From the IMG/VR virus record IMGVR_UViG_3300047201_000005, positions 1 to 41,641 of that record: 41,641 bases of DNA, one strand, 5' to 3'. The notes under the pieces are model-generated. The model did no database searches and was not told where the DNA came from. It was given only the letters and a program-made list of their open reading frames with translations. Source of the DNA: a virus. Both the position numbers and the translations under genes were made by a program. Shown here piece by piece: positions 6,379 through 41,641 of this stretch (the first letter of the stretch is position 1; each line of letters begins with the position of its first letter).

Positions 6379-8274
6379 TTATGCTCGCACCAGAGCTATC
6401 GTATAGAGGGTTGTCCCAACATAAACTTTTAGAAATTTGTCTGTCGTTGATCCAGCAGCGGCGTCCTGTGTTACACCTTGACCATCGGGTACAGAAGCAA
6501 ATCCCGACCAAAGCACGGTCCCGGTCGGCGTCCTTACTCTGAAACCTGTTATGATTCCGCTTTTGGTTCCGGAACCACCTAGACCTACTGAGACACCGCA
6601 ACCATGTGAATTGCTTGCCAGCGTGCCTACAACATCAAGTCCGAAGTTTGCTCCGCCGACATCACCAAGTCCATCGCTTGTGTCTATGCTCTTACCACTC
6701 TTTATAGTAGTATTGCCCCATATCGAACTTAATCCGCCGATGCCATCATAAGACGCATTAAGCGATAAATCGGTGTGAAATGGTGTCATTGATACGTCTT
6801 TATTACCGGTAACCGCAGAAGTAGAAAGTAACCTAACGGTCATTCCTTCTATGTACCCACCAGCCGACCATGCTTTACCACCATCATCGCAGTAGATAGC
6901 ATTACCCTGCGCACCTTCAGCCGTACCGAGTCCCCAGTTAGTATAATCCAAAGGAATGCCATATCCGACTGCATCATTATCCTCACCGATCCATATACCT
7001 CTATGGCATGTGTTCGGTCCAGCATAAAGAATATGGCTCCAATGCGGCGTTCCTGGGGGAACGTAAAAAGCTACTGCTTTACCGTCACCCGAAAAAGCAC
7101 CTGCACCCTCATTGGCTATGATTGACTTCACACCTGCAAGAACTGCGGCGGCTCCAATAGCGACTGTCCCGGTAAGTCCGAAATACCCTTCGATTCCAGC
7201 TATACAAATCGTGGCATTCCCAATGGTAGTAGCGCCTGCCAACTCCCAATATCCACGAACGCAGTTAAAGAATCCTCCTGATATATCCTTTCCAGTTGGG
7301 ATGTACATGTGTGATCGGATATTCGACCATGTAGGCGAACCTGTCTGTGTAGTGCCGATTAGCCCCCTTAGCCATAGCGTTGCATTATCACCAGTGATAA
7401 CCTGACTATCAGTGTCAGCAAATATCCTGATAATTGAAGCAGGATTTAACTCTCCAGAATAATGCGCAGCATCCTTAATTGATGCCCCAGTACCATCAGT
7501 ATTTTGCGTAAGCGTCCCGACTTGTGCAACCAGATCGCAAGTATTCACTGGAATGTTGATGCCGATCTGCCATAGTTTTGATGTTCCATTTCTATCTATC
7601 TGCAAAGCATTGAAATATCCAGCAGTGAAATTTGCAGAAGCATTTACCGAACTATCTATGCGGACACCATAAATTTTTGCACCGCCTGACAATACAGCAG
7701 ATGCACTTGTCATCCAAACAGTGAACTTACCAGCGTTCCAGTCTGTTGTAGGACCTGCGCTAGTTGTTATCGTTACAGCCTCGTCACTTTCTAGTAATCC
7801 CCAGACTGCTGAACCGCTACCTGTTGAGTCTATGTTTTTTTCAACTTCCATAGTTGCCCATACTGTAGCCCAAGAGTACCCACCACCCAATGCAAGTGTT
7901 ACCGCTTTGTTTATGGTTGTCTGGAAAATACCTGCCGCCCCTACATAATCGGTAGTGTTGTATAATATCCCCGTACCTGTTGACTTCATCTCTGTGCATA
8001 CCCGAAGTCCGGTATAACTCAAAGTAAGATCAACACCAGCATCGGTTGCAGGAAATGACCGCTGACCGATCTCTATTTCGCTGTCAAAGAACTGTAAGGA
8101 TTTTGCTGAAGCATCCCACTGAAAATAATCACCAGCGGTGTTACTCCAAGCCTTAAAATCAATACCATAACCTGTTAGCCCAAGTATCAACGCAGTCTCT
8201 ACTGCTGATGATTTTCTGTAAATATTCGCATTTCCTGACGAATCTGTAATTCCTTTATAAGTTTGAGTAGCCAT
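6379..8274 (-). CDS. Large Gly/Ser/Thr-rich virion protein (631 aa), unknown
   Basis: 631 residues, very rich in Gly, Ala, Thr and Ser with short strand-like blocks throughout, and no signal peptide, membrane segment or catalytic motif I can identify. N-terminus MATQTYKGITDSSGNANIY; later landmarks include GGFFNCVRGYWELAG and TCHRGIWIGEDND. The composition resembles phage fibres or capsid decorations. It sits right after the capsid, a decoration candidate and a small protein, which suggests attachment to the head. A strong GGAGG site precedes the ATG by 10 nt. At about 1.9 kb it is the second largest gene in the genome. An alternative is a head fibre that binds host surface. Confidence 0.55.
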   Translation of the reverse strand: MATQTYKGITDSSGNANIYRKSSAVETALILGLTGYGIDFKAWSNTAGDYFQWDASAKSLQFFDSEIEIGQRSFPATDAGVDLTLSYTGLRVCTEMKSTGTGILYNTTDYVGAAGIFQTTINKAVTLALGGGYSWATVWATMEVEKNIDSTGSGSAVWGLLESDEAVTITTSAGPTTDWNAGKFTVWMTSASAVLSGGAKIYGVRIDSSVNASANFTAGYFNALQIDRNGTSKLWQIGINIPVNTCDLVAQVGTLTQNTDGTGASIKDAAHYSGELNPASIIRIFADTDSQVITGDNATLWLRGLIGTTQTGSPTWSNIRSHMYIPTGKDISGGFFNCVRGYWELAGATTIGNATICIAGIEGYFGLTGTVAIGAAAVLAGVKSIIANEGAGAFSGDGKAVAFYVPPGTPHWSHILYAGPNTCHRGIWIGEDNDAVGYGIPLDYTNWGLGTAEGAQGNAIYCDDGGKAWSAGGYIEGMTVRLLSTSAVTGNKDVSMTPFHTDLSLNASYDGIGGLSSIWGNTTIKSGKSIDTSDGLGDVGGANFGLDVVGTLASNSHGCGVSVGLGGSGTKSGIITGFRVRTPTGTVLWSGFASVPDGQGVTQDAAAGSTTDKFLKVYVGTTLYTIALVRA

Positions 8275-16168: not shown

Positions 16169-17341
16169 TTACCGATTTAATTCGGTTAGTTCCTCATACC
16201 CTATCTTAACGCCTTCCCTCTCACAAAACACTTGCTCCGATGAATCTATGATGTCTAATATCCCTTCTTGTACTGTATTTGCTATATAATACATCATTAT
16301 CGGTGGAACACAATTTCCTAACATTCCCCATTGCTGACTAAATGTTCCGAGTAACTCAAAATCATCTGGAAAAGCACATATCCGCTTTAATTCTGATATT
16401 GTTGGTGTAGCTGGTATATTGGGCATATACATATCAAGCGTTCCTGAATTGCTTTTGCAAAGTACCGTTCCTGATACATTATCAAAGCTTAATTTAATTT
16501 TATTAAAAGCAGATTTTTTGCCATTTTCCTTTTCATGTCCAACTGCAAGAGTTTTTCCTTCTGGAGTATTTTCCCACCATTTTTTCATTCTAGGTGATAA
16601 GTATTGCCTTTCTGCATTGTCAGGTACATAAAGATCACCAAAAGCATCCCTGACAGTATATCTATAATCTAAAGGTTTCGGATAACAAGGTTCTAAGTCT
16701 ATATCATTTCTCACACCTTGAAATATAACCCTTTGTCTCATCTGTGGCACGCCAAGCCATTGTGCGTCAAGTAACCTTGCCTTGACGTTATAACCACAAT
16801 CCTTTAATGCCTGTAATATCAGCTTGAAATAACCTTTTGCAGTTCCTTTAAGTAATCCTGATACATTCTCTGCTATAAAAACCTTTGGTTGTATTACTTT
16901 CAAGATTCTGATATATTCATCAAACAAAGTTTCATTCTTTTGCTTGATACCATTATCATACTGTTTGTCTTTGCCCCATCCCTTTTCACGCTTGCCAGCA
17001 GTTGAGAACGCTTGACATGGAGGCGAACCATCCATTAAGTCAAGTTCACCTTGCTTTAATCCAATACTTTCAAGAATCTCCTCTGGTAATACTTTCTTAA
17101 TATCACGCCTGTCAACTATCGTGCCTTTATGGTTTTTCTCATAAGTATCAGCGGCAATCGGTATAAATTCATTTGCCCATAAGACCTTATAACCCGCTAA
17201 CTTATATCCTAGACTTGACCCCCCACAACCTGAAAAGGTAGAAATGACATTATAACCACTCCATTCTATTTCAGATATTTCTTGCATAGATGGAATTTTA
17301 TAAGGTGGTTTATTTTCCTTTTGGTTTTCCTGACCATTCAT
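16169..17341 (-). CDS. C5-cytosine DNA methyltransferase
   Basis: About 390 residues from the ATG at 17341 (MNGQENQKENK). The frame stays open further upstream, and the weak GTGGAT site leaves the start uncertain. Conserved motifs: I, STFSGCGGSSLGYKLAG; IV, DGSPPCQAFS with the catalytic Cys near residue 109; VI, IAENVSG; VIII, QRVIFQGVR after LDAQWLGVPQM; and X, MLGNCVPPIM near the C-terminus. All catalytic motifs are present, so it is probably active, methylating cytosine C5 in phage (and possibly host) DNA. Protection against restriction is the usual role. It overlaps the ParB-like gene upstream by about 30 bases, and the pair probably works together. Confidence 0.92.
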   Translation of the reverse strand: MNGQENQKENKPPYKIPSMQEISEIEWSGYNVISTFSGCGGSSLGYKLAGYKVLWANEFIPIAADTYEKNHKGTIVDRRDIKKVLPEEILESIGLKQGELDLMDGSPPCQAFSTAGKREKGWGKDKQYDNGIKQKNETLFDEYIRILKVIQPKVFIAENVSGLLKGTAKGYFKLILQALKDCGYNVKARLLDAQWLGVPQMRQRVIFQGVRNDIDLEPCYPKPLDYRYTVRDAFGDLYVPDNAERQYLSPRMKKWWENTPEGKTLAVGHEKENGKKSAFNKIKLSFDNVSGTVLCKSNSGTLDMYMPNIPATPTISELKRICAFPDDFELLGTFSQQWGMLGNCVPPIMMYYIANTVQEGILDIIDSSEQVFCEREGVKIGYEELTELNR

Positions 17342-17855
17342 ATCCACATTTTGGGCAACAATATTCTGTTTCAATATTATCTCCATATTCCTTAAAATCA
17401 TCTGGTGATTCAATTTGTTTACTAAGTATCCTACCAGCCAAGTCATCTAAATCCTGAGAGTCAAACGCAAAGTCAAGGCTAGGGATATTCTGCTCTGATA
17501 GCTCATTGATAAGCTGTTGGAGTGATGAATCATCAAATATCGAATCATCACCGACTTTGTTGTCTGCAATTAAAAAGGCTTCTGCCTGCCCATCAGGCAT
17601 ATCAACTTCAACCATGTCAGCGCCTGTATACCCCTCAGCTTTCAATGCTTCTATGATTCCATGACCAGCCAAAACATAGCCTGTTGACTTCTGATAGACG
17701 ATTGACCCTTTGGCAAAGCCATGTTTACGGATTAAATGTCTGAGTTTTTCTATCTGTTGGGGAGAGTGCAAGCGGGGATTCTTGGGATGTGGCGTGATTT
17801 CGTCAAATCGCTTTCTTACAAACATCAATTCTGCTGATTTTAATGAGTTATTCAT
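17310..17855 (-). CDS. ParB/Srx-fold protein with C-terminal zinc ribbon
   Basis: 181 residues. Residues ~15-110 have the ParB N-terminal-like pattern: ITPHPKNPRLHSPQQIEKL, GFAKGSIVY, GYVLAGHGIIEALKAEG (the box II-like segment), and AEAFLIADNKVGDDSIFDD. Phages often encode this domain next to or fused with DNA methyltransferases; some members have been described as nucleases or NTPases. The C-terminus adds a half zinc ribbon, CCPKCGYEWSG. The next gene, a C5 methyltransferase, overlaps its end. It is the first protein gene after the tRNA. An activity cannot be read from sequence alone. Confidence 0.8.
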   Translation of the reverse strand: MNNSLKSAELMFVRKRFDEITPHPKNPRLHSPQQIEKLRHLIRKHGFAKGSIVYQKSTGYVLAGHGIIEALKAEGYTGADMVEVDMPDGQAEAFLIADNKVGDDSIFDDSSLQQLINELSEQNIPSLDFAFDSQDLDDLAGRILSKQIESPDDFKEYGDNIETEYCCPKCGYEWSGKPKGK

Positions 17856-22759: not shown

Positions 22760-23614
22760 TCACGATTTATTTGCGATATTGTCACATTCCAATTTGAGAC
22801 TATTTATCTCTACTTTGAGATCGTAACATTTGTTAATTATCTCATTTTCTATTATGCTAATATTTTTTGAAACAACCAGAAGTCGCTTTGCTAAAAGATT
22901 CTTTGTTATGGCTTTGTCCAATAACGATATTTCAACATCCATTTCGTCTTTTTCAAGTTGTGCTAACTCCAACTTTTTCTTTGCTATTAGTTTTGTCTGC
23001 GGTTTCATCTGATTATCACGAATAGAGGCTTCAAGCTCTCTCATATAATCCAGGAACTTCTGACGCTTGGTTTCCAACTCTCCATGCTCATCTTTTTGTA
23101 GCTCTAACTTTTTGCAGATAGACAGCAATAAAGATTCTTCTTGCTTTACTTCAAGTTTTTCCAATGTCTTCCCCCTTGTTGTTGTCGGTCTTTCAACTTC
23201 AATAACAGTATCTTGTCCCTCGTTTGGTTTTTTTTCAATCAAATCATTATTCATAGAATTATCTCCTCTTTTTATGTTATGCCTTTTTAGGAAATTATAA
23301 ATAGTCGAATCCTTTACACCGAACTTTTTTGCTATTGCACACTGAGAAATAGATTCAAATAAATATAAACGTCTAATTTCATTAATATTCTCTTCCGTAT
23401 CTAATTTTGAATACGAATTACCCTTACCTTGCATGTGAGCGAGATTAGAAGCGGTTAATCTATCTCGCAATGCTATATTATGCTTTCGCATAAATTTAAT
23501 TATAAACTCTTTACTAACATTATATCTTTTAGCTAAATCTGTTGTTGATTCCCCGCCATCATATCTTCTTCTAACAGCTTGCGGATCAACATAATTCATA
23601 TTTTGCTTAATCAT
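22760..23614 (-). CDS. HTH-repeat and coiled-coil DNA-binding protein
   Basis: 284 residues. The N-terminal ~115 residues contain two successive helix-turn-helix units: RRRYDGGESTTDLAKRYNVS with EFIIKFMRKHNI, and IRRLYLFESISQCAIAKKFG with STIYNFLKRHNIKR. The rest is a long charged coiled coil (about 150-280; LLLSICKKLELQKDEHGELE, then KRQKFLDYMRELE). This architecture suits a DNA-binding oligomer, for example a replication or recombination accessory protein or a transcription regulator. No catalytic motif. The function is not known. Confidence 0.6.
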   Translation of the reverse strand: MIKQNMNYVDPQAVRRRYDGGESTTDLAKRYNVSKEFIIKFMRKHNIALRDRLTASNLAHMQGKGNSYSKLDTEENINEIRRLYLFESISQCAIAKKFGVKDSTIYNFLKRHNIKRGDNSMNNDLIEKKPNEGQDTVIEVERPTTTRGKTLEKLEVKQEESLLLSICKKLELQKDEHGELETKRQKFLDYMRELEASIRDNQMKPQTKLIAKKKLELAQLEKDEMDVEISLLDKAITKNLLAKRLLVVSKNISIIENEIINKCYDLKVEINSLKLECDNIANKS

Positions 23615-24400: not shown

Positions 24401-25597
24401 TTATTCAGGTATATCATCCTCTGAGTCAGGCTCATTCTGCACTATCAGGAAACTAGCAAGTCCCTCATTGAACTCGTCAATAGCACCCTTCTCACCGCTC
24501 AGGACAGCCGATATAAGCCCACTTGTGAGCATTTCGTCTGAGATGTAGGCGTTGACATCACTAAAAGATTTGCCAGTCACAACCATAATCTGATTTATTG
24601 TGCTTGATCTGATGATTTCACCAGATACCGCATCTTTTACCTGGTCTTTTGATGCCAATGCCACCTTCCGACTATCAATCATCTTCTCAATCTCCGTCTT
24701 GATCCTAGAACTTTCAAGTGACTTTTGCTTGTCAACCCAATCATTCAGCTTTTCAATTGTATCAAATGAGTTGATCAACGTCTCCATTTTGGCAAGTGCG
24801 TTAGCCTTTTTAATGGCTTCCTCTTGTTTGCGTTTGCCCTCTAATTCGGCTTCATTAGGTTTGCCTTCTTCAATATCACCATTAATCCCCGGATCTGTTA
24901 CGGTATTTTCAACTTTGTTAGATGCATCATTAGACTGTTCATCATTGCCAGATTGCTTTGTTTCTTTTAATGATTGATTTTTTTGGTTTATCGTTTCTTC
25001 TGAATCCTCTGACTGTATTTCCTCGACCACGTGAGGAAGCCCGCCAACAACGTCAGCACAAACAATACGCAAACCCTGCACGAATGCCCTTACCTTTAAT
25101 TGAAAACCAGGCTGAACATTCCACATACCACCTCTTGGTTTTCTCCCATCTCTTGTGAGCATATATCCTGCTTCTAGATAGGGGACTTCCCATTCAAAAT
25201 CATCGTCCATCCCTTCACGTTTAGTTGAGAAGATCGCAACCCACGTGTCTTTGTCTTTTTCATTACCTTTGACAAGTTTCACGTTTGGATGCTTGACGAG
25301 TTTTCCACTAGAAAACGCCCTCTTTAGATAGGTGCGATATGAAACAAGAGGCGTCATCTTGCCCTGTATTTTTGCACAGTATACCTCGTATAGTGTTGGA
25401 TCAAGTCTTTGCTTTTCCACGATAAAGATAAATTCTTGCCATTCTTTCTCAGTAATATCCGATGGAGCATAAGCCCTTCTGATTATATCCTTTTGCAGAA
25501 CGACCGTATTTCCATTATCGTCTTGAAACTCAATCGTATTCTCCAGCACCTGATCTAAAGGTTCTCTATATTCCGTAGTCTTTTCTTGTTGCATCAT
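24401..25597 (-). CDS. Bet/RecT-family single-strand annealing protein
   Basis: 398 residues. The N-terminal ~200 residues fit the Bet family: YAPSDITEKEWQEFIFIVEK, QRLDPTLYEVYCAKIQGK, SYRTYLKRAFSSGKLVKH, then GGMWNVQPGFQLKVRAFVQG. The C-terminal half is polar linker and helix (NEAELEGKRKQEEAIKKANA) and a tail with repeated hydrophobic helices, longer than usual for the family. The protein anneals complementary single strands during recombination-dependent replication. It overlaps its upstream neighbour by four bases and is near the DnaQ-like exonuclease. Confidence 0.82.
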   Translation of the reverse strand: MMQQEKTTEYREPLDQVLENTIEFQDDNGNTVVLQKDIIRRAYAPSDITEKEWQEFIFIVEKQRLDPTLYEVYCAKIQGKMTPLVSYRTYLKRAFSSGKLVKHPNVKLVKGNEKDKDTWVAIFSTKREGMDDDFEWEVPYLEAGYMLTRDGRKPRGGMWNVQPGFQLKVRAFVQGLRIVCADVVGGLPHVVEEIQSEDSEETINQKNQSLKETKQSGNDEQSNDASNKVENTVTDPGINGDIEEGKPNEAELEGKRKQEEAIKKANALAKMETLINSFDTIEKLNDWVDKQKSLESSRIKTEIEKMIDSRKVALASKDQVKDAVSGEIIRSSTINQIMVVTGKSFSDVNAYISDEMLTSGLISAVLSGEKGAIDEFNEGLASFLIVQNEPDSEDDIPE

Positions 25598-25897: not shown

Positions 25898-26012
25898 GTG
25901 ATCACCTTTTAGGTCCGCCCCGCTATTCGGGCGGACCAACCATATCATGTAAATAAAAGAACACTCAATTTATCTCATATAACCACCCCCTTTCAATGCG
26001 TGAGGTGATCAC
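25898..26012 (-). other. Structured intergenic RNA region
   Basis: A 10-bp inverted repeat, AGGTGATCAC (26003-26012) and GTGATCACCT (25898-25907), encloses ~95 bases that include a 9-bp GC-rich hairpin (GGTCCGCCC at 25912-25920 with GGGCGGACC at 25929-25937). There is no T-run, so it is not an intrinsic terminator. The inner copy lies just before the ribosome site of the next gene. The stretch also holds an isolated strong ribosome site followed by ATG AGA TAA (25970-25990). Confidence 0.5.
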
Positions 26013-26341
26013 GCTGTCTGCTTCATTTCACGTCTCATATCCTCTATACAACAAGGACACATACCAACCAATTGTTTACCTTGCGGAACACATTTAATAT
26101 TTTCCCAATAATCATCCCTTTTGATGTTCACGATGCCCTTTTGTAAACACCATCCACATATCAGAATGAACCGCTCTGCCCTAATATCCTTCGCTATCCG
26201 CATGTTCTCAGATAGCCTTTGCCTCAACGGCAATTCCCTTGCAACAAGTATCCTCTGCCCGAGTTCAAGAACTGAATTGTCTATCTCAGGCAATCCCATC
26301 ACTTCTGCTATCTCCTGTGCGAACTCCTTCATGTAACCCAT
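26009..26341 (-). CDS. Cys-rich (zinc-binding) hypothetical protein, 110 aa
   Basis: Started at the ATG at 26341 (MGYMKEFAQEIAEVMG), which has GTGAGG 8 nt upstream; longer starts at 26362 or 26371 are possible. Two CxxC pairs, CGWC and CPCC about 28 residues apart, flank IVNIKRDDYWENIK and should bind zinc. The N-terminal part is helical with basic residues. It lies between the origin-like region and the recombination genes. Function unknown. Confidence 0.55.
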   Translation of the reverse strand: MGYMKEFAQEIAEVMGLPEIDNSVLELGQRILVARELPLRQRLSENMRIAKDIRAERFILICGWCLQKGIVNIKRDDYWENIKCVPQGKQLVGMCPCCIEDMRREMKQTA

Positions 26342-26367
26342 CTTTTTAACCTCACCCTTCATTACCT

Positions 26368-26493
26368 TCACCGCTTGTTAAATTCCCTTCTTAACCACAT
26401 CAAAATCTTAGCTTGCTTTATGGAATTGAATATTCCACTCTTGCATACCAAAACCCGCAATAACTTATAAAATGGAAACACTTTTTTATTCAT
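26368..26493 (-). CDS. Possible small basic protein (41 aa)
   Basis: ATG at 26493 has AAGGG 6 nt upstream. The product MNKKVFPFYKLLRVLVCKSG continues IFNSIKQAKILMWLRREFNK, basic and amphipathic. Its TGA lies at the alternative GTG start of the next gene. It is the only plausible frame between that gene and the origin-like array. Confidence 0.4.
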   Translation of the reverse strand: MNKKVFPFYKLLRVLVCKSGIFNSIKQAKILMWLRREFNKR

Positions 26494-26573
26494 AAAACAC
26501 CCTTACAGAAAAAAATATACACAAAATTAAGCTAAACCCACATGAATACTAGGGTTGCTTGCTGTTTTATAAT

Positions 26574-26708
26574 AGGGGTAAATAAGGGGTAAATAAGGGG
26601 TAAATGGGCGGTAATGGATATAAAACCTTTGCCCCAATAATTGATACCTTTACCATAATAATTAATACCTTTACCCATTATTTACCGCCTATTTACCCTT
26701 TGTTTACC
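26574..26708. repeat. Iteron-like array, candidate replication origin
   Basis: Four GGTAAA-type motifs start at 26577, 26588, 26599 and 26610, exactly 11 bp apart; the first three sit in perfect 11-bp repeats (AGGGGTAAATA). On the other side of an AT-rich centre, TTTACC starts at 26649, 26670, 26681, 26692 and 26703 (21, 11, 11, 11 bp). The outer blocks form a near-perfect inverted repeat (GGGTAAAT-GGCGGTAA). All motifs thus face one side of the helix. It lies directly downstream of the helicase gene. Alternatives are an operator array or a partition site. Confidence 0.7.
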
Positions 26709-26718
26709 ATTGTATAAT

Positions 26719-26755
26719 GTACTAAGCTAAACTAGCACTACTACTAGCTTAGTAC
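26719..26755 (-). other. 11-bp perfect hairpin over the helicase stop codon
   Basis: GTACTAAGCTA (26719-26729) and TAGCTTAGTAC (26745-26755) are exact complements with a 15-nt loop. The helicase TAG lies at the inner end of one arm and is followed in frame by two more TAG codons. No T-run follows, so it is not a standard terminator. It borders the origin-like array and may be part of it. Confidence 0.6.
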
Positions 26756-28243
26756 CTTATTCTTATTAGTAGTCATTTCTAAATAACTAGGTATAAGACT
26801 GGAAGTCAAACTATAAAAACCATTCTCAGCCTTTATTTTGTGTGATGCTAAGGCTTTTGTAATTAGAATTCTTGCTTGTTTTTCTGAAATACCCATGCTC
26901 ATTTCTACTCGTGTAACCAATGTTGTATGTGTCAATTTCTCATTGTCCTCAAAAGCATCTATTACACAGTCATCTGTCATAGGTTGAAATTTATCAAAGT
27001 CTGCTACTACTTCAAAAATCCTTGTTATTGGATTCAAAGCTACTTTGATTTCGTCAGGCTGTTCAAAATCCCTCGTCTTGCCGAACTCGATTTTTTTGTA
27101 CATTGGATTTACTGATTTTGAATATCTACGCAGACCTATTATTGAAGTACTTGCATTTGCGAAACCCACTGAGCCAAGCATTGAATTGATTAGGCTGTCC
27201 TCGTCATTGCCCTTTTTGAAATGATGTATCATTACCCATGATATTTTACTGTTTATCTCTCTCATTTTTCGTATCAAAGTCTTGACGATAGTTAAGTCAT
27301 TCTGATCGCCTGTGAATGAATCCAACACAGGATCCACAACTACTATCTCAATATGCAACTCCTCTATCCATCGGGAAATAGAAGCCACATCCTTTCTATT
27401 GTCAAATGTCATTGCCATACAGTCAGGAATGAATAACCGCTCAAGTTGTGTTTCGTTTAGATCGTATTCCTTCAATTGACATTTAAGCAATCTATCTATT
27501 GTATATTCTGAGTTTTCAAGGTTGAGGTAAAGTATATGGTAGTCTGAATCTGATATTTGAAGCTTATTCAGGAATGTAGAACCTTTGAGGATTGATAATA
27601 TCATCTGTGTTGCTAGCGTGGATTTGCCTTGCCCGGTATATCCTGCGATCGTGGTAAAGCCAGCCGCTGGCAATAATTGATCTATTATGTAGGGTGTCTT
27701 TGTTTTTTCTCTTTGCAGGAATTCTTTTGCAGACTCTATTAGCTTTTCGTGTTTACTCGTTGGCTGGATTCTGTTGATTAGTTGTTCAATATTTTCAGTT
27801 ATAACAGCAACATCAATAGCGGAGTTTTTGGCTTGCTCTGAAAGTTTGTAAAGCGATTGAATAAGGTCTCTACGCTGACTAAGTTCAATAAGGGATTCTG
27901 CGTAATATTCAGCTAATGAATCACCAGGGCAGGAATCGAAAAGTTCAAAAACATAATTTCTACTGTCGAATTTTTCTGTTAAACCTAGTTTATCAATTTC
28001 AATACAGACAGACATATCATCAATAGGTATACCATTATTGAACATAGAAACAATCGTATTGAAAATAATCTGGTTCTTATCGCTGTAAAAGATGGTTTTC
28101 TCATTACCATTGAAAATGTATAAAACTTTTCTGATTGTTACTTTGTTTGTTTCAGGTAAGAGCATAGTACCGAGTAGTCGGCACTCTGTATCTATATCGC
28201 AAGGTGGGACATTGCTTATCTGAATTTCTGTATTATTTTTCAT
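26744..28243 (-). CDS. Replicative helicase: DnaB-like N-terminus with RepA-like (AAA_25) core
   Basis: 499 residues. Residues ~15-155 resemble the DnaB N-terminal helical domain (IDTECRLLGTMLL, YYAESLIELSQRRDLIQSLY). The core from ~185 is RecA-fold: Walker A AGYTGQGKSTLATQM (200-214), ILYLNLENSEYTIDRLL, and Walker B IEIVVVDPVLDSF (298-310), then VMIHHFKKGNDEDSLINSML and GSVGFANASTSIIGL as in RepA/AAA_25 hexameric helicases. It should unwind DNA at the phage origin. It is the first gene after a strong promoter and a structured leader, with AAAGGA 7 nt before the ATG, and the phased repeat array begins just past its end. Confidence 0.82.
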   Translation of the reverse strand: MKNNTEIQISNVPPCDIDTECRLLGTMLLPETNKVTIRKVLYIFNGNEKTIFYSDKNQIIFNTIVSMFNNGIPIDDMSVCIEIDKLGLTEKFDSRNYVFELFDSCPGDSLAEYYAESLIELSQRRDLIQSLYKLSEQAKNSAIDVAVITENIEQLINRIQPTSKHEKLIESAKEFLQREKTKTPYIIDQLLPAAGFTTIAGYTGQGKSTLATQMILSILKGSTFLNKLQISDSDYHILYLNLENSEYTIDRLLKCQLKEYDLNETQLERLFIPDCMAMTFDNRKDVASISRWIEELHIEIVVVDPVLDSFTGDQNDLTIVKTLIRKMREINSKISWVMIHHFKKGNDEDSLINSMLGSVGFANASTSIIGLRRYSKSVNPMYKKIEFGKTRDFEQPDEIKVALNPITRIFEVVADFDKFQPMTDDCVIDAFEDNEKLTHTTLVTRVEMSMGISEKQARILITKALASHKIKAENGFYSLTSSLIPSYLEMTTNKNKVLS

Positions 28244-28400: not shown

Positions 28401-28862
28401 TCACAGAGGTCTATTATGCTGAATTTTATAGATTGTACCTTGTGTTACTCCGAATCTGACTGCTATTTTTTTCCTATGATCTTTCATGCTTTTTATTTTA
28501 ACTATATTATCATGTGATAATTTCTTGGCGTTTATTTGATTATCATGCTTAACTGTATTCCTACCTTTTTTATACATATCTATTATATTATCCCTATTCG
28601 TTCCTAAAAACAAATGACTTGGATTACAACAAGAAGGATTATCACATTTGTGGCAGACAAATAAACCTTTTGGAATTTCACCGTAAGTTAATATCCACGC
28701 TACTCTATTTGATTGTTGTGCTTTAGAATCAAAATAGAATTGTCCATATTTATCCTTTTTTTTATAACCAATCCATTCCCAACAACTAAATAAATCACCA
28801 ATATTCACATGAGACCAAAACCTTTCTCTAATCGTTATTATATCTTGCTTTATCTCTTTCAT
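28401..28862 (-). CDS. HNH homing endonuclease (HNH_3 type)
   Basis: 153 residues. Typical order: RFWSHVNIGDLFSCWEWIG, RVAWILTYGEIPKGLFVCHK, then CDNPSCCNPSHLFLGTNRDN, which includes the zinc Cys residues and catalytic His/Asn. The C-terminus (KKIAVRFGVTQGTIYKIQHN) is a HTH that helps site recognition. It starts inside the end of the HTH gene (35-base overlap) with AAGG before its ATG, so the two are expressed together. A mobile, self-spreading gene; the second HNH gene in this phage. Confidence 0.88.
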   Translation of the reverse strand: MKEIKQDIITIRERFWSHVNIGDLFSCWEWIGYKKKDKYGQFYFDSKAQQSNRVAWILTYGEIPKGLFVCHKCDNPSCCNPSHLFLGTNRDNIIDMYKKGRNTVKHDNQINAKKLSHDNIVKIKSMKDHRKKIAVRFGVTQGTIYKIQHNRPL

Positions 28863-29031
28863 AATCCGCCCTTCTGTTTTCTAGCCATAACTTTATTTCT
28901 GTTATATCAAAATCCCAGCGCCATTGAATACCTTTAATCAGCATTTTTGTCTTTGGCATACCTAGTTTTTGCCATCTAAATGTAGTATCCTTACTCACAT
29001 CTAAAGATTTCATTAATTCGTTTCTTGTCAT
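28828..29031 (-). CDS. Small MerR/excisionase-like HTH protein (67 aa)
   Basis: MTRNELMKSLDVSKDTTFRW is followed by QKLGMPKTKMLIKGIQWRWD and FDITEIKLWLENRR: a winged-helix domain of the MerR/excisionase/Nu1 type. It could be an autoregulator, since its promoter contains a 16-bp dyad, or a DNA-architecture protein. Expressed with the downstream HNH gene. The ribosome site is AAAGGTGGTG. Confidence 0.68.
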   Translation of the reverse strand: MTRNELMKSLDVSKDTTFRWQKLGMPKTKMLIKGIQWRWDFDITEIKLWLENRRADYERDKARYNND

Positions 29032-40146: not shown

Positions 40147-41641
40147 TTATTGACTTATGATACCATGCCCTTCCGCAAATGTGTAATCTATTGGCTGATA
40201 TGACAATATTCTCATATTTGACTGTCTTATAAGCCTCTCTAATGATTGCTTTGATACCGGCTTATGAAAACCATAGCCATCGGTTTTTGATTCACCAGCG
40301 ATTCTCTGATCATCAGGAACGGTCACTATAATCTTACCCTTATCATTGAGAACTGCCTTTGCATTTTGCAATACCTTAATTGAATCTATATCTGTTAAAT
40401 GCTCTAGCAAATCACCGATAATTATGCTGTCAAACTTATCTCTGAAAGGTAAAGGATCTCTAGCATCCGCAATCACGTCTGCCTTTATATCTAAAACGGT
40501 ATAAGGACATTTCGACCAGCGATCAATATTGATCGCCCCTAATTTCTCCTTGAATCCTGTGCTATCATCGTGACAGCCAATATTAAGTATCTTGCCTTCT
40601 GCATGTTTGAACTGGAAATTATATTGCGTCCCTATCAGTTTATCCCAGCCCTCCAAGACAGAATCCCACTGATCAACTATGCGCTCCCAGTTAAATTGTA
40701 TTCTAGCGTCATACATCATTTGTTCTCTGATAGAATTCTGATATTCAGGTGAATTCGCTACGTTGATAAGTTCTGTCATATACCTAGCTTTATTTAGTTC
40801 GCTATAAGCATCGCCCTGAATAAATATTCCATATTTGATATTGTTTCTCAAGGCGCCATAAGGTCTGGTGATAGGAATAGCCCCTAAAGCCTGCGCCTCC
40901 ATACAGGTGATACATGAAGTTTCAAAGAAATTCGTTTGATAAAGCCATACACCTGTCTGGAGCCATTGACGATAAAGCTCTGTTTGTGGAACCCTACCAT
41001 GATAAAAAACATTTGGCTTTTGTGATTCAATTAATACTTTATCACGATATTTTCTAGTTTTTATAGCTTCGGGATGATTTCTCCTCTTTTCGTCCTCTAC
41101 TACTTTATTTATGTTGTCAAATCCGTAGAATGTATGTATCTCTAATTCAGGATCATATCGTCTTGCAAGAGTAAAGGTCTGTAAAGTTTCTAGCAGTCCA
41201 CGGTCCGGACTTGAAGCATACATGACCCGCTTAAAATTCCTCTCCAATTCTTCTTTTTCAACTTCTCTTATAACATCCATCCTTATGCCGTTAGACGATA
41301 TGAAGATTTTATCTCTGAGATAAGGCTTTGATGCTAGAAGTATGCTGCCATGAGCTAAAGTCAATGCTATGATCTTTTCAAACCGCTCCGCCCTTTCTTC
41401 ATTCAGTGTTGGATAATCCACGTCTTGGCATAACAGCCATGCCCTTTGGTCTTGCAAATTGTCTATTATTTCAGGCTTTCGATATATAACCCAAAGACCA
41501 TCCTCTGACCAATCCGCCTCTGAGATGTGACGCCATTGAACGCCTCTATGTATTCTTTGGCAATCATCAGGGATCGGCGCATAGCTTATCACTTCGTAGC
41601 CACGCTGTGCCAATCGCCATGACATCTCTACCTGATATGTC
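40147..41641 (-). CDS. GT4-type glycosyltransferase fused to SAM methyltransferase (main part)
   Basis: The complete 524-residue protein starts at 211 across the circular join. Residues 1-~340 are a GT-B fold glycosyltransferase: GGSETHQVE (24-32), FISSNGIRMDVI, VMYASSPDRGLL, and the donor-site FETSCITCMEAQALGAIPIT (266-285). From ~375 there is a class I methyltransferase: EGKILNIGCHDDS (375-387), INIDRW, VIADARDPLPF, DSIIIGDLLEHLTDID, and a final GKIIVTVPDD strand. A two-domain enzyme could add a sugar and methylate it. It lies between the tail terminator and tail-tube genes. The in-window end copy differs at one base (H29Y). Confidence 0.85.
   Translation of the reverse strand, partial: TYQVEMSWRLAQRGYEVISYAPIPDDCQRIHRGVQWRHISEADWSEDGLWVIYRKPEIIDNLQDQRAWLLCQDVDYPTLNEERAERFEKIIALTLAHGSILLASKPYLRDKIFISSNGIRMDVIREVEKEELERNFKRVMYASSPDRGLLETLQTFTLARRYDPELEIHTFYGFDNINKVVEDEKRRNHPEAIKTRKYRDKVLIESQKPNVFYHGRVPQTELYRQWLQTGVWLYQTNFFETSCITCMEAQALGAIPITRPYGALRNNIKYGIFIQGDAYSELNKARYMTELINVANSPEYQNSIREQMMYDARIQFNWERIVDQWDSVLEGWDKLIGTQYNFQFKHAEGKILNIGCHDDSTGFKEKLGAINIDRWSKCPYTVLDIKADVIADARDPLPFRDKFDSIIIGDLLEHLTDIDSIKVLQNAKAVLNDKGKIIVTVPDDQRIAGESKTDGYGFHKPVSKQSLERLIRQSNMRILSYQPIDYTFAEGHGIISQ
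41511..41641. repeat. Terminal overlap, right copy
   Basis: Same 131 bases as 1-131 apart from A at 41637 instead of G at 127. The unique genome is therefore about 41,510 bases. It could be the circular-assembly overlap of a circularly permuted phage, or a short direct terminal repeat; the latter would usually leave no mismatch. Confidence 0.9.

Follow-up and report, generated by a model that had tools for sequence, protein, structure and literature searches.

The window analysed here comprises an entire virus record, 41,641 bases long. It carries a direct terminal repeat of 131 bp (1-131 and 41511-41641) with a single mismatch (130/131 identical), so the record is probably a complete tailed-phage genome, either circularly closed or terminally redundant. 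The minus strand carries essentially all genes. PHROG and Pfam scans recognised structural genes for portal, head protease, capsid and tape measure proteins, and the terminase is of the PBSX type, 42-45% identical to that of Thermoanaerobacterium phage THSA-485A and to that of a metagenome contig. The replication and recombination block reads leftwards from a 67-aa MerR/Xis-like protein through an HNH endonuclease and a helicase to an array of GGTAAA/TTTACC hexamers, and continues beyond the array with a probable 41-aa open reading frame (ORF), then genes for a Cys-rich protein of 120 aa and a protein of 94 aa, and finally RecT, an exonuclease and an HTH protein at 22760-23614. The 41-aa ORF is unlisted and is preceded by a Shine-Dalgarno-like AAGGGTG. 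The features needed for the argument are these:

24401-25597, minus strand: RecT/Bet-like annealing protein of the downstream operon, from profile matches
26009-26371, minus strand: 120-aa Cys-rich protein, no family
26368-26493, minus strand: probable small gene of 41 aa, first after the array, with a GTGA overlap with the next gene
26372-26743, no strand: largest intergenic region of the genome (372 bp, the largest gap among annotated ORFs), containing the array
26577-26615, plus strand: left arm, with GGTAAA at 26577, 26588 and 26599 and GGTAAT (one mismatch) at 26610, in exact 11-bp steps
26616-26669, no strand: core between the arms, mildly A+T-rich only (26616-26648, 64% A+T)
26628-26654, minus strand: two extra sites of right-arm polarity, TTTGCC at 26628 (degenerate) and TTTACC at 26649, in 21-bp steps
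26670-26708, minus strand: right arm, with GGTAAA at 26670, 26681, 26692 and 26703 in exact 11-bp steps, mirroring the left arm
26714-26760, minus strand: hairpin with 16-bp arms over the helicase stop codon (DNA fold z = -4.3)
26744-28243, minus strand: replicative helicase of 499 aa, with a DnaB N-terminal domain and an AAA_25 RecA-like domain, its 3' end facing the array
26807-26977, minus strand: C-terminal region of the helicase (about residues 423-479), predicted winged helix and candidate reader of the array
28828-29031, minus strand: 67-aa MerR/excisionase/Nu1-like winged-helix protein upstream of the helicase, an alternative binder

Between 26577 and 26708 the array comprises eight exact hexamers and two one-mismatch copies, making ten sites in two mirror-image arms with a consensus of approximately ATAAGGGGTAAAT. 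The original prediction had counted nine GGTAAA/TTTACC motifs; the array is real, but not with nine exact copies, and the last of the four plus-strand copies it described keeps its 11-bp spacing but is the inexact GGTAAT. The five minus-strand copies lie just as described, at steps of 21, 11, 11 and 11 bp (TTTACC at 26649, 26670, 26681, 26692 and 26703). The four sites of the left arm mirror the four outermost on the right about exactly the same centre (start plus end is always 53285), and both arms point inward, facing each other. Together they form the large inverted repeat that had been proposed, with 41-nt arms that are 78% complementary and 50 nt between them. The extra sites at 26628 and 26649 belong to a 21-bp imperfect repeat. 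With 10.5 bp to each turn of the helix, sites spaced by 11 or 21 bp stay near one helix face, drifting by about 17 degrees per 11-bp step.

The supposed AT-rich core proved marginal, at 64% A+T against 60% for the genome. Outside the array, the stretch at about 26460-26540 reaches 75-80% A+T and is a possible unwinding region; the genome's most A+T-rich stretch lies elsewhere. No ORF of at least 60 aa overlaps the array, and those that do are short (at most 48 aa) and probably due to chance; a coding explanation was rejected because no long ORF crosses the array. We found no Rfam match at the array and no DnaA boxes near it.

Comparison with shuffled sequence showed that neither the density nor the phasing of the sites is expected by chance. 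GGTAAA occurs eight times in 135 bp, whereas 300 dinucleotide shuffles of the genome gave at most three copies, and in 100 genome shuffles no hexamer of any kind exceeded five. Among all hexamers, the longest chain in helical phase is that of the array, with five members; no chain exceeded three in 200 genome shuffles, in agreement with the helical phasing originally claimed. The array holds the only phased hexamer chain longer than three in the whole genome, and local shuffles of the 372-bp gap never gave a chain longer than two. Multiple short iterons, phased on the helix and not due to chance, are expected of a SaPI/P4-type origin, and the array has such repeats. It is very probably a multi-copy protein-binding site.

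The stop codon of the helicase gene (26744) is separated from the end of the array (26708) by 35 bp, so that the array lies directly downstream of a gene for a DnaB-N/AAA_25 replicative helicase, as the original prediction had recognised in placing a helicase directly adjacent. Pfam matches are to DnaB (7.6e-15, residues 13-118) and AAA_25 (3.4e-21, residues 174-346), and the protein also matches PHROG 19. The helicase family is established, as are the sequence, phasing, symmetry and location of the array. The C-terminal region of the helicase has no Pfam match. When its last 100 residues were folded alone with AF2 from the single sequence, the model had the order H-E-H-H-E-E, with block pLDDT of 77-84 over most of its length and an overall pLDDT of 65. 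The best Foldseek matches to this model were winged helices of the IclR, MarR and ArsR types, at a marginal E of 5e-3. A homologue on the Caldicellulosiruptor plasmid pATHE01 gave a BLAST alignment (171-481, 22% identity, E 7e-13) that spans the same region. These results lead us to predict a winged helix in the C-terminal region of the helicase.

A second candidate binder is the 67-aa protein, which matches PHROG 66 (excisionase, E 5.8e-5) and PHROG 57 (terminase small subunit, E 2.6e-4). Because MerR-fold excisionase/Nu1-like proteins fill roughly 10-bp-spaced sites cooperatively, this protein is a real alternative. The most economical candidate is the helicase itself, acting through its predicted C-terminal winged helix, with the 67-aa protein second. 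Where the original prediction saw no obvious initiator and expected a new binder, there are therefore two ordinary candidates.

To place the array among other sequences, we scanned 2.9 million viral contigs for three GGTAAA at a fixed step. Steps of 11 bp gave 106 viral loci with 78 distinct cores, which were mostly non-coding; only 5 of the 78 lay inside an open frame of at least 120 aa. At 12-bp steps, equal to four codons, there were at least 120 loci, and among the matches listed 90 of 104 distinct ones lay in an open frame of that length. Because coding repeats dominate the 12-bp scan, the fair control is the 13-bp scan, which found 9 viral loci only. Given 106 loci (5/78 in long frames) against 9, 11-bp phasing of GGTAAA is strongly favoured in non-coding viral DNA. 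Independently of any origin, this excess of 11-bp over 13-bp triples points to a recurrent multi-site binding architecture at both integrase and replication loci.

Several of these arrays likewise lie behind a helicase gene. In two families the helicase is of the SF3/DUF5906 type and the array sits directly 3' of it: L107/L078 carry arms in perfect mirror symmetry around a core of 82-83% A+T, and L024/L086 have a single arm. The C-terminus of the L107 helicase gave a structure model too poor for use. Closer to the present layout, viral locus L007 has an AAA_25 helicase, an array with the same inward polarity and then a PriCT_2 primase, and L350, from a Parachlamydiales metagenome-assembled genome, has an AAA_25 helicase, an array of the same polarity and then a CHC2 primase. 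A scan for inward-facing two-by-two arms found the pattern in four bacterial genomes, with L350 the only one in a replication module; another match, L348, was rejected as a coding chance match.

Searches with the helicase, the portal and the nucleotide sequence found no close relatives other than a 100% identical fragment, L108, which is without the array. Methyltransferase and terminase searches found distant kin, whose helicase matches were only weak. The original prediction had looked to related phages for the array; no close relative with the locus was found, and no phased chain of four or more occurs in the examined sequence of nine terminase- or methyltransferase-level relatives and G004. 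AAA_25 homologues taken from Bacteroidia genomes, phages and a plasmid often have a winged-helix-like C-terminus but seldom an array. None of 18 genome loci has a GGTAAA chain 3' of the gene, two of the 18 have three-copy chains of another hexamer (L392, TAAACC; L396, GGAATA), and the phage and plasmid set has one three-copy chain, inside a helicase gene. Since nearly all homologues checked are without a comparable 3' array, the helicase family alone does not predict the array.

Four terminase-level relatives (L193, L202, L204 and L217) have TTTACC/GGTAAA sites inside an initiator-like gene. In L217 this gene has HTH_36 similarity and is followed by a DnaB helicase; its TTTACC sites are spaced at about 21-23 bp. 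Lambda O-type iterons likewise sit inside the initiator gene. The layout in these relatives has in common with the present array an identical hexamer and a replication module, and differs in that the sites are intragenic, at that wider spacing, in a gene upstream of the helicase.

A search of the literature on 11-bp phage origin repeats found nothing matching the array; its parts have counterparts in known systems. SaPI Rep uses its C-terminal domain to read iterons immediately downstream of its gene and seems to do so as two hexamers; SCCmec Cch2 likewise uses its C-terminal domain to bind direct repeats downstream of its gene, at a putative origin (PMC7581432). As in those elements, short iterons here lie directly downstream of a helicase gene with a candidate reader at the predicted C-terminal domain, and the two inward arms would suit two opposed oligomers, as for SaPI Rep. 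Unlike SaPI Rep and Cch2, which are DUF927 or D5-type, the helicase here is DnaB-N/AAA_25, and the iterons differ in sequence and spacing. P4 alpha uses a winged helix to bind the repeats at its origin, and the pRN1 origin lies just 3' of the gene for a replication protein (ORF904) with a C-terminal winged helix (PMC4234260). Both resemble the present case in joining a helicase to a winged helix (predicted here), with the pRN1 origin again immediately 3', but both are SF3 helicases fused to a primase, and pRN1 has a stem-loop without iterons. RSF1010 oriV also combines iterons with an AAA_25/RepA-like hexameric helicase; there, in contrast to what we propose here, a separate protein, RepC, and not RepA reads the iterons (PMC4234260, PMC8965321). 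By analogy, the array would work most like a SaPI/P4-type iteron origin. We do not file it as a member of that group, which has SF3 or DUF927/D5-type helicases, because its DnaB-N + AAA_25 helicase is of another superfamily and binding is putative.

Of the explanations considered, the most likely is that the array is the phage's replication start, and this reading is helped by the analogous array-behind-helicase layouts of unrelated elements. Its specific form, an iteron-type origin bound by the helicase or by the small MerR/Xis-like protein encoded just upstream, is in our judgement evenly poised. In the mechanism that we infer, covering binder, melting, loading and origin function, a phage DNA-binding protein would fill the four sites of each arm, 11 bp apart on one helix face, and the facing arms would let two oligomers assemble head-to-head. 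Flanking AT-rich DNA would then melt and the helicase encoded next door would be loaded in both directions. The reader would be the winged helix predicted at the C-terminus of the helicase itself, on the model of SaPI Rep and P4 alpha, or else the 67-aa protein. Cumulative GC skew, which had been proposed as a check, is monotonic and has no turning point at the array because nearly all genes lie on one strand. Overall, the earlier observation is confirmed with small corrections and its interpretation is partly supported, with an origin the likeliest function and an operator role the main rival.

The array could instead be a cooperative operator whose phased sites are occupied by a phage regulator, which would switch a promoter within the array or next to it; the target would be the downstream recombination operon (41-aa ORF, Cys-rich protein, RecT and exonuclease). 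An operator, or a combined origin and operator, is a plausible minority reading; taken as an operator proper, it is possible and on the unlikely side. About 80 bp separate the array from the start of the recT operon, for which no strong promoter lies outside the array, and a MerR/Xis-like regulator is encoded nearby. The only sigma70-like site of the gap, TAAACA-18-AATAAT, lies inside the right arm, so that transcription from it would be sensitive to binding. However, this match is weak (9/12) and the region has 14 sigma70-like sites against 16.2 expected from shuffles. Moreover, at 132 bp, with ten sites in two mirrored arms, the array is large for an operator, and matches of PWM strength outside the array are scattered and unclustered, with no sign that other promoters are regulated.

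Integrase arm-type sites at attP are also phased short sites, about 10-11 bp apart, and several viral families have 11-bp GGTAAA arrays directly next to tyrosine integrase genes. Such integrases account for 8 of 127 non-redundant neighbour genes of the 11-bp arrays, several within 50 bp, and are commoner neighbours than helicases; these flanking arrays are probable attP arm sites. In one phage family (L003, L031, L052, L065 and L075, and also L023 and L036), GGTAAA 11-bp arrays overlap or lie within about 35 bp of the 3' end of an integrase-like gene of about 334 aa and are probable attP arm sites. That the present array is itself an attP-like recombination site is improbable: the phage does encode an excisionase-like protein, but Pfam and PHROG recognised no recombinase of the tyrosine or serine type in the genes scanned, and the array is located in the replication module.

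A large stem-loop formed by the inverted arms (29-41 nt each, with a loop of 50-65 nt), to which phasing would be secondary, is a very unlikely explanation. The strand folds with z = -2.7, and the sizes resemble those of the pRN1 origin, with its 21-nt stem and 58-nt loop (PMC4234260). Such a fold arises automatically from inverted arrays, however, and the extra same-face sites at 21-bp steps contribute nothing to a stem. Finally, a centromere-like partition site of the ParR/parC or ParB type is most improbable: two sets of 11-bp iterons are characteristic of parC from plasmid R1 and a ParB-like gene lies at 17310-17855, but the R1 sets share one direction whereas the arms here face each other, Pfam and PHROG scans found no ParA or ParM partner, and the ParB-like gene is 9 kb from the array and overlaps a DNA methyltransferase gene. 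The overlapping pair spans 16169-17855 on the minus strand; pairing of ParB-like and methyltransferase genes is common and unrelated to partition, and this is likely a modification pair rather than a partition one.

If the iteron-type origin is right, it provides a precise origin for a phage lineage without a recognised initiator, and a search rule for others: GGTAAA at 11-bp steps, in inward arms, directly 3' of an AAA_25 helicase. A bolder version, which we hold to be doubtful, is that a DnaB-family (RecA-fold) helicase with a fused C-terminal winged helix reads its own origin and loads itself as two rings. Inward 11-bp-phased GGTAAA arms directly behind the gene would then make a separate initiator unnecessary, a tentative notion, and the helicase would be, again speculatively, the DnaB-type counterpart of the SaPI/P4 initiator-helicases. 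To our knowledge, characterised DnaB-type helicases depend on separate initiators or loaders, and the array raises the question of whether such helicases can recognise an origin themselves. The layout itself is familiar; the DnaB-type self-reading variant would be a surprise if shown. Were it true, the layout shared with L007 and L350 would imply a dispersed, unrecognised class of origin.

Arrays with 11-bp phasing also occur elsewhere with other sequences. L059 (2036-2290) has two different 11-bp arrays near each other, AGGTCGGTAAA and GCATTACGAAA, with about five copies each. Other hexamers are phased at 11 bp in L146 (about 1840-1935, TGTCCGC), L155 (about 7030-7075, GTCCCGG), L173 (8008-8075, ATAACA) and L207 (1239-1270, AAGGGT). 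In these last four contigs, which have related terminases, the arrays are possible initiator iterons.
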